Positions 10,273 through 13,259 of a stretch of 14,165 nt of DNA are shown piece after piece; position 1 is the stretch's first letter; every line of letters starts with the position of its first letter. Where the stretch lies: positions 1 through 14,165 of the forward strand of contig JAGAIK010000104.1 of NCBI GenBank assembly GCA_017626625.1, given 5' to 3'. The notes beneath the pieces were generated by a model. That model was not told the origin of the DNA. It worked only from the letters and a program-made list of their open reading frames with translations, and did not search any database. This stretch comes from Roseburia sp. GTDB lineage: Bacteria > Bacillota > Clostridia > Lachnospirales > Lachnospiraceae. The translations under genes and the position numbers were made by a program.

Positions 10273-11589
10273 TCAGGCGGAAACCGCTAACCGGACGATT
10301 GCAGTCTCCACCTGGTGGTCCCTGATTTCCGTCACCTGAATGCAAAGCCCCGACGCCTCCATCTCCAAATCAGAGCCGTCTTCCGGTATGGTTCCGAGGG
10401 TATCAAAAATCAAGCCGTTAAAGGTTTCATACTCCTCGCAGGGCAGCGGCACCCCTAAGGCTTTCTGTACCTCGTCAATCGGTGCGCTGCCGTGGATTTT
10501 CCAGATTCCCTCCTCCACAGCCTCGATGAAGTTTTCCTCCTCTTTTCCCGCCGTGCCGTCACACAATTCACCCACCAACTGCTCCACTAAGTCGTTTAAG
10601 GTGACAATACCGCTCATTCCGCCGTATTCATCTAAGACAACTGCCATGGTCTGGTTGGCATTTCTCATGTTTTTGAAAAGGACATCCGCCTTCACGCTGT
10701 CTGGCACAAAATAGGCAGGAACTACCGCCTGTTCCATGACTGCTTCCCTGGTTTTATCTTCGATGCGGAAGTATTCCTCTGCATGGAGGATTCCCACGAT
10801 TTTGTCCGCCGAATCATCACAAACCGGGTATCTGCTATGTCTGCTATGTAAAATCTCCTCCTGCCAGGTTTCCATGGAATCCTGCAAATCCAGCATGACA
10901 ATATCCGTCCGGTGGGTAGCAATTTCATCTGCGGACAGGTCGTCAAACTCAAAGACATTCTTGATAAATTCCTTTTCCTCGTCATCTATGGTGCCTTTCT
11001 CGCTGCCTGCGTCCACCATCATGCAGATTTCTTCCTCTCCCACCTGTTCCTCCTGGGCGCCGGGTTCTATTCCTATCAGCCGGAGCACGCCGTTGGTGGA
11101 AACGGTCAGAAGCCAGACTAACGGAGTGAAAATTTTTGCTATGGCGCTGATTAAGCCCGACATTCCAAGCGCCATGGCCTCGGTTTTTCTCATGGCTATC
11201 TGCTTCGGCACAAGCTCACCGAAAATCAGCGTAAAATAAGATAAAATAATGGTAATGAAAATCACGGAAACCGTACTTAAGGTTTTTTCCGGGACAGGCA
11301 CTCCAAGCCCCAAAAGCCCTTCCACAATGACATCGGAAAAGTTTTCCGCCGCAAAGGCGCTTCCCAAAAATCCCGACAGGGTGATGGCAACCTGAATCGT
11401 TGCCAAAAACCTCGCCGGCTCCTCTGTCAGGCGGGCAAGGCGTATGGCGCGCTTATCCCCCTCATTCGCCAGCTTTGCCAGCTTGTTCTCATTCATAGAG
11501 ATAACTGCAATTTCTGCGCAGGCAAACACCGCATTTAAAAAGATTAATACAACCTGTAACAATATCATTAAAATAATTGAATTTTCCAT
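10273..11589 (-). CDS. CNNM/CorC-HlyC family membrane transporter-like protein (probable Mg2+ efflux type)
   Basis: The 438-residue protein has the three-part architecture of this family. First is a CNNM (DUF21) membrane domain at about 1-185 with several hydrophobic helices and the GELVPKQIA signature (124-132). Second is a CBS pair at about 200-345 (RYPVCDD, then VLDEYGGMSGIVT at 318-330). Third is a CorC_HlyC domain at about 350-436. Members such as MpfA/YhdP of Firmicutes confer Mg2+ tolerance, probably by Mg2+/Na+ exchange; older annotations call them hemolysins. The Mg2+ role here is inferred from the family. The ATG at 11587-11589 has GGAGG seven bases upstream, but that site can be paired with an anti-Shine-Dalgarno sequence in a long leader hairpin. 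It has its own promoter and a roughly 225-nt leader. The 4-bp hairpin at 10248-10261 after the stop is at best a weak terminator. Confidence 0.92.
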   Translation of the reverse strand: MENSIILMILLQVVLIFLNAVFACAEIAVISMNENKLAKLANEGDKRAIRLARLTEEPARFLATIQVAITLSGFLGSAFAAENFSDVIVEGLLGLGVPVPEKTLSTVSVIFITIILSYFTLIFGELVPKQIAMRKTEAMALGMSGLISAIAKIFTPLVWLLTVSTNGVLRLIGIEPGAQEEQVGEEEICMMVDAGSEKGTIDDEEKEFIKNVFEFDDLSADEIATHRTDIVMLDLQDSMETWQEEILHSRHSRYPVCDDSADKIVGILHAEEYFRIEDKTREAVMEQAVVPAYFVPDSVKADVLFKNMRNANQTMAVVLDEYGGMSGIVTLNDLVEQLVGELCDGTAGKEEENFIEAVEEGIWKIHGSAPIDEVQKALGVPLPCEEYETFNGLIFDTLGTIPEDGSDLEMEASGLCIQVTEIRDHQVETAIVRLAVSA

Positions 11590-11595
11590 CTTGTT

Positions 11596-11710
11596 TCCTC
11601 CAAAAATATATCATAGCTGTTTCTTAAAATGCAAAAGGACAAAGCCTGTTTCTCACTCGCGCAAGTACAGGCTTCGCCCTATCCATTTTAATCTATGATA
11701 TAACGGAGGA
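11596..11710 (-). promoter_or_regulatory. Long ribosome-site-sequestering hairpin in the CNNM gene leader
   Basis: In the minus-strand RNA three nested perfect blocks pair: UAUAUCAUAG (11702-11693) with CUAUGAUAUA (11616-11607), UUAAAAUG (11691-11684) with CAUUUUAA (11631-11624), and the 14-base block 11680-11667 with 11649-11636. The loop is 17 nt (11650-11666). The 14-bp block contains two G-U pairs that would be A-C mismatches in the plus-strand RNA, so the structure favours the CNNM transcript. At the base, UCCUCC (11710-11705) can pair with GGAGGA (11601-11596), the ribosome binding site of the CNNM gene, across a small internal loop (GU opposite five Us). The five Us after the stem could also allow some transcription termination. 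I recognise no known riboswitch class in it. Confidence 0.75.
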
Positions 11711-11742
11711 TTGGTATCACTTTCACTGTCGCCTTCGTCCAT
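11653..11742 (-). CDS. Candidate 29-residue leader peptide upstream of the CNNM gene
   Basis: An ATG (11742-11740) opens a 29-codon frame ending TGA at 11655-11653, inside the hairpin loop. The peptide starts MDEGDSESDTNPP, with five acidic residues among the first nine and then Pro-Pro at positions 12-13, followed by a basic part (YHRLKWIGR). The frame covers the entire 5' arm of the leader hairpin, and the Pro-Pro codons CCT CCG are the anti-Shine-Dalgarno segment. Acidic or proline-rich N-termini are known to destabilise translating ribosomes at low Mg2+ (MgtL of Salmonella, E. coli work on intrinsic ribosome destabilisation). The weak point is initiation: the only good ribosome binding site, AAAGGAG (11764-11758), is 15 bases from the ATG, longer than ideal. 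Other short frames overlap. Coding status is unproven. Confidence 0.35.
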   Translation of the reverse strand: MDEGDSESDTNPPLYHRLKWIGRSLYLRE

Positions 11743-11833
11743 AATGAATCGTTTTTTCTCCTTTCCACTGCATATGTCCTGTCCCGTTATCCCCGGTCAG
11801 GACACTGATTTCATGGGATTATTATAACGGAGG
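11699..11833. repeat. 11-bp direct repeat TATAACGGAGG, two copies
   Basis: The plus strand carries TATAACGGAGG at 11699-11709 and again at 11823-11833, 124 bases apart. The first copy spans the base of the leader hairpin and the anti-Shine-Dalgarno segment; the second overlaps the -10 and spacer of the CNNM promoter. On the minus strand they read CCTCCGTTATA. They could be a repeated regulator site or coincidence. Confidence 0.4.
11775..11804 (-). promoter_or_regulatory. Promoter-proximal hairpin in the CNNM gene leader
   Basis: TGTCCTG (11775-11781) and CAGGACA (11798-11804) make a 7-bp stem, with an additional CCG/CGG pairing inside the loop. In the minus-strand transcript it would fall about 10 bases after the predicted transcription start, as the first structured element of the leader. 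It may be part of a larger ligand- or protein-sensing fold or simply protect the 5' end. Confidence 0.45.
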
Positions 11834-11849
11834 CGTTAAAAATGCACAA
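11821..11849 (-). promoter_or_regulatory. Sigma-A promoter for the CNNM gene
   Basis: On the minus strand a perfect TATAAT (11826-11821) is preceded at exactly 17 bases by TTGTGC (11849-11844), a 3/6 match to TTGACA. Transcription would begin near 11814, leaving a leader of about 225 nt before the ATG at 11589. Such a long leader fits the structured elements found in it. Confidence 0.6.
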
Positions 11850-11924
11850 GAGGGGAACCCGCTAAGATTCCGCTTGGATTGTATCTGTAAAAATACCGTT
11901 CCGTTTTGTATATAAACAGGTACA

Positions 11925-12038: not shown

Positions 12039-13259
12039 ATGGCATTACATGTGATGGACGAGGCAAACCGCTGCCTGAACTGCAAGCAGCCCCAGTGTCA
12101 GAAGGGCTGTCCCATCAACACCCCGATTCCGGAGGTTATCCGGCTGTTAAAGGACAACCGTTTAGACGACGCCGGGCGGATGCTCTTTGAAAACAACCCG
12201 CTGACCACGGTCTGCAGTCTGGTGTGCAACCACGAAAACCAGTGCGAGGGACACTGTGTGCTGGGCAGAAAGGGAGCGCCCGTCCACTTTTCAACCATTG
12301 AAAACTACATTTCCACCACCTACGCAAACAAAATGACCAACGGTCCTGCGCCCTCTAACGGCATAAAGGCAGCCATCATCGGCTCCGGTCCGGCAGGGCT
12401 TACCATCGCCATTCTTCTCGCCCGCTACGGCTATGACGTGACAATTTTTGAGGGCAAGGACCAAATCGGCGGGGTACTCCGCTACGGCATACCGGAATTT
12501 CGTCTGCCAAAGTCCGTGTTAGACGACATCAAGTACCGCCATTTAGACTTAAAGGGCATTAAATTCCGCCCCAACACCCATATCGGCAGCGCCATCGGCA
12601 TCGACGATTTGTTCCGCGACGGCTACAAAGCTATTTTCGTGGGAACCGGAGTCTGGAAGCCCAACGCCCTGCACATCAAGGGGGAAACCTTGGGACATGT
12701 ACATTTCGGCATCAACTACCTGAATAACCCGGACAGCTATTCCTTAGGGGAGCGGGTCATTGTCATCGGCGCCGGAAACGCCGCCATGGATGTGGCAAGA
12801 ACCGCTATCCGCAAGGGCGTCCGCTACCTGACCTGCTTTTCCATCACGAAAAAGGTTGCCGCCAGCCAGCATGAATTCAGCTATGCCAAGTTAGAGGGGG
12901 TTCAGTTTGAATACAACAAGGCTCCTGTGGAAATCACGGACGAGGGTGTTATTTTTAAAGATATTATCGAGGAGGAGGACGGCACTTTCCGGGATGTTCC
13001 GGATTCGCAGCAGCTCTATCCGGCGGACAGCATCATTATCTCCATCAGCCAGGGACCCCAGAACCGTATCGTAGACACCACTACGGGGCTGACCGCCAAC
13101 GAGCGTGGGCTTCTGATAGCGGATGAGACAGGGCACACCAGCCGTCCCGGCGTCTTTGCTTCCGGCGACGTGGTAAACGGCGCACGCACGGTGGTGGAAG
13201 CGGTGGCGCACAGCAAGATTGTGGCGGAATCCATGCACGAATATATGCAGAATCAATAA
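12039..13259 (+). CDS. Stand-alone GltD-like Fe-S/FAD NAD(P)-dependent oxidoreductase
   Basis: The 406-residue protein resembles the glutamate synthase small subunit and related dihydropyrimidine dehydrogenase-type modules. An N-terminal Fer4_20 domain carries eight cysteines in two groups: C12, C15, C20, C24 and C59, C63, C69, C73, able to hold two [4Fe-4S] clusters. Then comes an FAD-binding Rossmann motif GSGPAGL (115-121) with GGVLRYGIPEFRLP (144-157), an NAD(P)H-binding motif GAGNAAMDVAR (244-254), and a C-terminal FAD-contact segment SGDVVNGARTVVEAV. It transfers electrons from NAD(P)H through FAD to the clusters. It is about 60-70 residues shorter than typical GltD, and no gltB lies next to it in the window, so glutamate synthesis is not assured; the partner is unknown. 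The ATG at 12039 has GGAGG nine bases upstream. It is the only plus-strand gene here, and its 3' end overlaps the convergent response regulator gene. Confidence 0.9.
   Translation: MALHVMDEANRCLNCKQPQCQKGCPINTPIPEVIRLLKDNRLDDAGRMLFENNPLTTVCSLVCNHENQCEGHCVLGRKGAPVHFSTIENYISTTYANKMTNGPAPSNGIKAAIIGSGPAGLTIAILLARYGYDVTIFEGKDQIGGVLRYGIPEFRLPKSVLDDIKYRHLDLKGIKFRPNTHIGSAIGIDDLFRDGYKAIFVGTGVWKPNALHIKGETLGHVHFGINYLNNPDSYSLGERVIVIGAGNAAMDVARTAIRKGVRYLTCFSITKKVAASQHEFSYAKLEGVQFEYNKAPVEITDEGVIFKDIIEEEDGTFRDVPDSQQLYPADSIIISISQGPQNRIVDTTTGLTANERGLLIADETGHTSRPGVFASGDVVNGARTVVEAVAHSKIVAESMHEYMQNQ

Follow-up and report, generated by a model that had tools for sequence, protein, structure and literature searches.

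The M-box and yybP-ykoY riboswitches are known examples of metal-related cis-regulation of transporters, and in translation-coupled attenuation of the pyrBI type a ribosome that reaches the terminator region permits read-through by the polymerase, the signal being polymerase pausing at low UTP. Closer to the locus described here are controls studied in enterobacteria. Acidic nascent chains near the start of a protein have been reported to destabilise ribosomes at low Mg2+, as in the MgtL leader peptide (PMC11282234). In Salmonella, the acidic codons of mgtQ are described with a dependence opposite to the one considered below, abortion there promoting mgtB (PMC8092293), while corC and mgpA are reported to be induced by high Mg2+, the N-terminal region of CorC to destabilise ribosomes, and a block of the YoaL leader start to lower MgpA (PMC12421838). 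In the open-licence PMC literature we found no description of how the bacteria studied here detect a surplus of Mg2+ or of total cation and turn their CNNM exporters on, nor of the leader class presented in this work.

The DNA analysed, referred to as the window, is a stretch of 14,165 nt from Roseburia sp. (Lachnospiraceae; contig JAGAIK010000104.1), and the features discussed are collected in Table 1. A first-pass annotation of the window had pointed to a very long hairpin in the leader of a CNNM transporter gene, behind a perfect TATAAT, and had proposed it as an undescribed cis-regulatory RNA acting in the CNNM transcript. The hairpin is real: when 11585-11716 was folded as minus-strand RNA, one long hairpin closed by the pair 11710/11596 was obtained, with a minimum free energy of -51.8 kcal/mol compared with -25.7 +/- 3.5 for shuffled sequences (z -7.43), none of 200 shuffles being equally stable. 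The plus strand of the region folds less stably (-35.8, z -4.5), as expected from the G-U pairs on the minus strand. Both promoter hexamers and their spacing are retained in L013, a 92% identical orthologue, and the probable promoter sets a leader of about 225 nt with its start near 11815, the length originally estimated. Neither this promoter nor the inner hairpin was listed by the consensus scans; the -35 box matches at just three of six positions, and the loop exceeds the limit of 8 used for terminators. The window has no Rfam match at E<=1, which bears out the earlier view that this is not an M-box, a yybP-ykoY element or another known riboswitch, and at gathering thresholds 13 related loci contained just tRNA, FMN riboswitch and T-box matches, all elsewhere in the loci. 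The proposal of a regulatory RNA stands in so far as the element is conserved and belongs to the CNNM transcript, but it was incomplete, in that an upstream reading frame (uORF) and the terminator-like look of the inner stem were overlooked and that the translating ribosome is a likelier sensor than RNA alone. Judged by comparison of related leaders, the hairpin forms, together with a tiny acid-rich peptide reading frame, a conserved control element of two halves.

Table 1. Features of the CNNM leader and gene in the window
Feature	Position	Strand	Basis
Probable promoter: TTGTGC (11849-11844), 17 nt, TATAAT (11826-11821)	11821..11849	-	inferred from sequence; kept in L013
uORF Shine-Dalgarno AAAGGAG, 15 nt before the ATG (unusually far)	11758..11764	-	sequence
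uORF, 29 codons and stop, MDEGDSESDTNPPLYHRLKWIGRSLYLRE	11653..11742 (opens 11742)	-	translation; conservation in L013
Whole hairpin	11596..11710	-	sequence and folding
Outer stem P1	11710-11693 (3' part of uORF, with UCCUCC) paired with 11616-11596 (up to the CNNM Shine-Dalgarno)	-	folding
Second stem	11691-11684 paired with 11631-11624	-	folding
Inner hairpin P2, conserved sequence, terminator-like	11626..11683	-	model R1, 52.4 bits
CNNM gene Shine-Dalgarno GGAGG	11597..11601	-	sequence; paired in P1
CNNM-CBS-CorC protein gene (PF01595, PF00571, PF03471), controlled gene, 438 aa	10273..11589	-	domain search

Two further observations concern the surroundings of the promoter. Between TATAAT and the uORF the window carries an extra stem (GTGTCCTGAC...) that is absent from the otherwise closely similar L013. 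On the opposite strand, a 7-codon ORF, MHKRGTR (11842-11862, plus strand), with GGAGG in front of it, lies across the promoter and upstream of the pyridine-nucleotide oxidoreductase gene at 12039; this is a reading of the sequence alone.

The 5' side of the window hairpin appears to be coding, being the 3' part of the 29-codon ORF, whose residues 2-10 are acidic and whose stop lies in the apical part of P2. The peptide is identical in L013, where all four nucleotide differences are synonymous. CNNM orthologues were gathered from 40 relatives, from named-species genomes (the best 80 of 565 confirmed) and from 397 genomes of the family, giving 157 loci and, after omission of four duplicate leaders and one with less than 200 nt upstream, 152 distinct leaders. 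An acidic uORF, defined as an ATG frame of 10-60 codons with at least three Asp or Glu in residues 2-7 at most 400 nt upstream, was present in 69 of these 152 leaders, a set that draws partly on the best 80 of 565, compared with one in the reverse complements and a mean of 5.15 (range 2-9) in 20 rounds of dinucleotide shuffling. In the named-species loci, again the best 80 of 565, it preceded 37/79 CNNM genes and 16/450 other genes; when the other genes were restricted to those preceded by 150 nt or more of free sequence, the figure was 4/244. Spacings of 13-15 nt between Shine-Dalgarno and ATG, longer than usual, were seen for the uORF in 35 of 77 leaders.

Acidity is limited to about residues 2-10 of the uORFs and is followed by a more hydrophobic part. 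Of 75 distinct uORFs, 89% have Asp or Glu at residue 2 and 71% have it at residue 3, and Lys or Arg reaches at most 5% at residues 2-10; these uORFs were preselected for Asp or Glu in residues 2-8, so that the controls are the reverse complements, the shuffles and the other genes. Up to 10 nt before P2, stop codons are absent from the uORF frame in 76 of 77 distinct leaders and from the other two frames in 39 and 12, and the conserved ORF together with its open frame can be taken as evidence of coding. Codon changes over 14 close uORF pairs amounted to 23 synonymous and 78 non-synonymous, and the peptide beyond the acidic part (the uORF C-terminus) is not conserved. The case for coding rests on acidity, openness of the frame and stop position, because the signal of synonymous change is clean only for the window compared with L013.

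The inner hairpin P2 has the consensus GGYATAGYCTG, a variable loop, CAGRCTRTRCCTTTTTG and then UUUUGCAUUUU, so that the inner stem and the T-rich stretch behind it resemble an intrinsic terminator. A covariance model, R1, was built from 54 hairpins (alignment A2) chosen by score from the 152 leaders, with L057, L120, L133 and L163 omitted by hand; it finds P2 in 78 of the 152, 54 of those loci having helped to build it (in L142 the match is on the other strand), and no P2 in the other 74. Over the 78 leaders the median folding energy is -24.4 kcal/mol, and the closing 16 nt of the match contain a median of 10 T. P2 thus has the GC-containing hairpin and U-run of a transcription attenuator placed between leader ORF and gene, and termination at this point is predicted. 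The exact P2 pattern gave eight matches in 50 genomes, all eight in CNNM leaders, and none in the reversed control, and the consensus, which was derived from the same leaders, scores 67 of the 152 above the best of 152 shuffled leaders. Two-sided changes were seen in 16 of 17 pairs, with a covariation score of 0.556 versus 0.324 for shuffled and at most 0.235 for slid alignments, inflated because the hairpins were picked partly for complementarity; the excess of G-U (142) over A-C (28) wobbles is likewise weak, because G-U was allowed in picking them.

The two halves occur together. All 78 P2 leaders have a uORF with at least two Asp or Glu in residues 2-8, and 63 have at least three (3 with a GTG start). 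The uORF begins 46-130 nt before P2, mostly 50-81, and its stop falls from -8 to +106 of P2, in none of the 78 more than 8 nt before the foot of the hairpin; the stops cluster at 0 to +5, at +31 (the class of the window) and at +64 to +106, beyond P2. When the pattern of the uORF start was searched alone in 200 genomes, 10 matches were found, 10/10 of them at an R1 hairpin, equivalent to about 7 to 8 independent matches as G085 and G188 contain near-identical copies. These comparisons indicate that what the relatives share is P2 together with an acid-rich uORF that ends at, inside or beyond it, and not the arm that pairs with the Shine-Dalgarno sequence.

Model R1 also led to genes other than the CNNM type of the window. 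In 397 family genomes it gave 40 hits, in 38 genomes, at E<=1e-5, a cut-off set after inspecting the hits. By place, 25 were CNNM leaders already in the family set; none of the other 15 had been used for the model, and six of them lie before a second type of CNNM gene, whose protein shares 26-29% identity with that of the window, six before a P-type ATPase, two before UppP and one before a remnant of the window's own CNNM type. At one locus, L199, the acidic leader and hairpin look complete, and the CNNM frame behind them matches only residues 9-62 of the window's protein. The ATPase was searched against families in L195 alone; L201 and L204, which contig ends interrupt, were judged from the first codons. 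It comes closest to the type IIA Ca2+ pumps, with Listeria lmo0841 as the best solved relative, but scores below the NCBIfam cut-offs. In both UppP loci a DUF368/PopT-like gene follows; UppP is above its NCBIfam cut-off and the PopT-like protein below. Fourteen of these 15 hits, which correspond to about 13 independent ones given near-identical copies in G085 and G188, have an ORF with at least three Asp or Glu in residues 2-8 (in L206 only from a GTG or TTG start), and the remaining one, L205, has the uORF MDDSGSMPRR... with two. As judged from their sequences, both CNNM types and the ATPase are concerned with cation transport, to which UppP is the exception. The best NCBIfam match of the window's CNNM protein is the polyamine exporter PaeA (NF052568), and membership of that family was rejected as its 240.4 bits are below the required 500.

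Beyond the cut-off the element fades. Among five hits at 1.2e-5 to 1.5e-5 a uORF was found only in L210, before a P-type ATPase, and not in L207, L208, L209 or L211; of 20 further hits (1.5e-5 to 0.002) only L226 was convincing, the rest resembling ordinary terminators, including L222, the second R1 hit in the window's own genome. The element is also rare: in a class-wide sample, R1 hits at E<=1e-5 occur in 4 of 391 genomes, among them that of the window. L243 proved to be the same CNNM leader as L049, L244 is a P-type ATPase with the uORF MDDGDRSNTYY..., and L245 showed no convincing uORF. Cultured carriers include Ructibacterium gallinarum DSM 107454 (L049) and [Clostridium] viride DSM 6836 (L114).

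Some weaker candidates, with genes named by eye from sequence reading, were seen along the way. L226 (1951-1998, minus strand) has a P2-like hairpin and the uORF MDSSEDNDGICDICRGRLGQKP (MDSSEDNDG...) before a TrkH-like K+ transporter gene; trkH and trkA are present in the window, where this leader was not noticed. In L072 (3179-3234, minus strand) a P2-like hairpin and an acidic uORF, MDTADSSNTARIDMDN... (MDTADSS...), precede an AI-2E-like permease gene, and P2-like hairpins, for which no acidic uORF was found, also precede such genes in L225 and L230.

Some of the loci lacking P2 may have a related arrangement in which the acidic stretch belongs to the exporter itself. At least two Asp or Glu in the protein's own residues 2-10 were found in 25 of 74 CNNM proteins without P2 versus 5 of 78 with it (Fisher 2.6e-5), start codons having been chosen by rule, so that some will be wrong. 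In L058 (MDDGDSNTGDEPPTNY...) and L042 (MDEGDST...) a uORF-like peptide is fused to the transporter, and in a distant CNNM clade eight of nine loci (L183-L185 and L187-L191, the exception being L186) start with an acidic stretch containing DP or DPD. These eight starts, MDxDPDG or similar, were seen right behind a good Shine-Dalgarno sequence and without P2. The EPDP motif of MgtL resembles them. The split-or-fused pattern is suggestive; acidic outside-facing N-termini could also be a feature of topology. By the start rule, non-ATG starts amount to 30/78 CNNM genes with P2 and 37/74 without, and an apparent TTG start behind a good Shine-Dalgarno sequence was noticed in many loci of both kinds, e.g. 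L046, L051, L053 and L059.

The element formed by uORF and hairpin probably lets the ribosome sense an excess of magnesium or similar cations, and the reading that we hold, with a little more than even confidence, is that the leader is a ribosome-sensed attenuator of a cation exporter, in which drop-off on the acidic chain at low Mg2+ or low cation leaves the exporter off and completion of the uORF turns it on. Ribosomes would initiate on the uORF and have to pass the Asp/Glu-rich stretch within the first ten or so residues. At low Mg2+, or at a low total of ribosome-stabilising cations, the acidic nascent chain would destabilise the ribosome and translation would be aborted; because the acidic stretch lies well upstream of P2, the aborting ribosome would leave P2 free to fold, transcription would be terminated and the exporter would stay off. 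In the clade of the window, the P1 stem may in addition hide the exporter's Shine-Dalgarno sequence after drop-off. With plentiful cations, the ribosome would complete the uORF, arriving at the foot of P2, in its loop or past it, and by keeping P2 and P1 open would allow the exporter to be expressed. Several observations weigh against this reading: the uORF peptide varies past its acidic part, R1 finds no P2 in 74 of the 152 CNNM leaders, the element is rare class-wide, and some of the proteins encoded behind it point to other cations or to polyamines as much as to Mg2+.

A ribosome-sensed attenuator could also answer a different natural signal, such as polyamines, Ca2+ or alkaline pH, or respond to a factor recognising the conserved P2 sequence. 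The Ca2+-type ATPase, together with the UppP and DUF368/PopT-like genes, would suggest Ca2+ or alkali as much as Mg2+, DUF368 mutants are reported to be alkaline-sensitive (PMC9876793), PaeA is the best match, below cut-off, of the window's CNNM protein, and the sequence of P2 is kept, which a plain terminator need not do. We consider this rather unlikely, in view of how directly the acidic N-terminus fits the Mg2+-dependent precedent.

The same parts might work with the opposite sign, abortion at the acidic codons turning the gene on and completion turning it off. MgtL (PMC11282234) and MgtQ (PMC8092293) are reported to behave in this way, and the mgtQ precedent would count against the sign that we propose. 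Yet a completing ribosome always reaches P2 and would disrupt the hairpin rather than allow it, the uORF showed no antiterminator pairing with P2 (mean z 0.2, -0.1 and 0.1), and the downstream genes look like exporters, whose expected activity at high cation agrees with the proposed sign; reversal is therefore unlikely in our opinion.

That the long hairpin alone hides the Shine-Dalgarno sequence and answers Mg2+ or a ligand, with no part for translation of the uORF, is the reading closest to the original annotation, and what that annotation described does hold in the window's clade. In the window, UCCUCC at one foot of the hairpin, formed by the Pro-Pro codons CCU-CCG of the uORF, pairs with GGAGGA of the CNNM gene at the other, and the probability of pairing between the Shine-Dalgarno sequence and the uORF arm is 1.00, falling to 0.28 with that arm shuffled; 4 of 20 shuffles of the uORF part match the real number of pairs between the uORF and the sequence behind P2. 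Across relatives the hairpin is conserved, but the pairing that hides the ribosome binding site is so only in part: it exceeds 0.5 in just 26 of the 73 P2 leaders used for this calculation (the remainder of the 78 being without a clear Shine-Dalgarno sequence or too long), with a mean of 0.36 versus 0.23 with the arm shuffled, and the alignment of the P1 region (A3) was too gapped to count P1. The anti-Shine-Dalgarno arm is strong in the window but is a clade-specific layer, and on these numbers an RNA-only switch was rejected as the general mechanism. With an acidic uORF in every P2 leader and its frame kept open, we find such a switch improbable in any form.

An amino acid attenuator sensing charged tRNA-Asp might be imagined, Asp being the commonest residue at positions 2, 3 and 5 of the uORFs, but Glu takes its place (60 Asp and 10 Glu at position 2, 49 and 7 at position 3) and the control falls on cation transporters and UppP rather than on genes of Asp metabolism, which makes this idea hardly tenable. 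Long near-perfect inverted repeats are often mobile elements, and a chance or mobile palindrome free of any regulatory role is just as implausible here, given that the repeat is single-copy in its own genome (the next DNA match has E 1.23; genome 81% complete), where the first-pass annotation had named copies at many unrelated sites as grounds for refutation, that the P2 pattern was found only at CNNM leaders in the 50 genomes searched and that the uORF differences from L013 are all synonymous.

Returning to the attenuator that is on at high cation, a wider proposal can be made, tentatively and with rather less than even confidence: that in the family of the window and in some other Clostridia the ribosome serves as a cytosolic cation gauge for exporter and envelope-lipid genes, an acidic chain, encoded in a uORF with P2 or fused to the exporter's N-terminus, switching export on when it is translated through, as a mirror image of MgtL, with the sequence of P2 perhaps adding a second input. 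Were this so, acidic nascent chains that destabilise the ribosome would recur as a sensor beyond the enterobacteria, a function could be assigned to dozens of small leader ORFs, and sequence alone would link two CNNM types, a IIA P-type ATPase and UppP with its PopT-like gene to one signal. The element is small enough for a direct and cheap test, with a few Asp codons, one hairpin and one reporter.

The pyrBI-type leaders share with the proposed mechanism the read-through permitted by a ribosome at the terminator region; the signal in the window's element would instead be drop-off on acidic residues. The M-box and yybP-ykoY riboswitches differ from it in that the window gave no match to them in Rfam and in that its element includes an ORF. 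The MgtL leader of enterobacterial mgtA is, like the uORF, a short leader ORF; its early acidic residues are reported to make the ribosome unstable when Mg2+ is low and in this way to govern how much of a Mg2+ transporter is made (PMC11282234). Abortion there turns an importer on through a Rho-dependent site, while the element described here would follow the reverse logic, with exporters and a hairpin that resembles a terminator and keeps its sequence. MgtQ of the Salmonella mgtCBR operon is an acidic-codon uORF as well, whose translation is reported to open an inhibitory stem-loop that sequesters the ribosome binding site; it has 8 codons, its destabilisation promotes an importer, and the abstract mentions no hairpin like P2 (PMC8092293). 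Similar in the kind of gene are CorC (YbeX), whose N-terminus is reported to destabilise ribosomes, and YoaL-MgpA (YoaE) of Salmonella and E. coli, where CorC-class genes are induced by high Mg2+ and loss of the YoaL start lowers translation of MgpA; the proteins are different, the CorC sequence lies within the gene itself, as in the fused CNNM forms, and no conserved hairpin is mentioned in the part of the report consulted (PMC12421838). The uORFs, as translated here, carry acidic residues within the first codons, as leader peptides of intrinsic ribosome destabilisation do with acidic or acidic/Pro residues, and by this analogy the window's element would work like the MgtL, MgtQ and CorC controls of enterobacteria and yet be a separate element.
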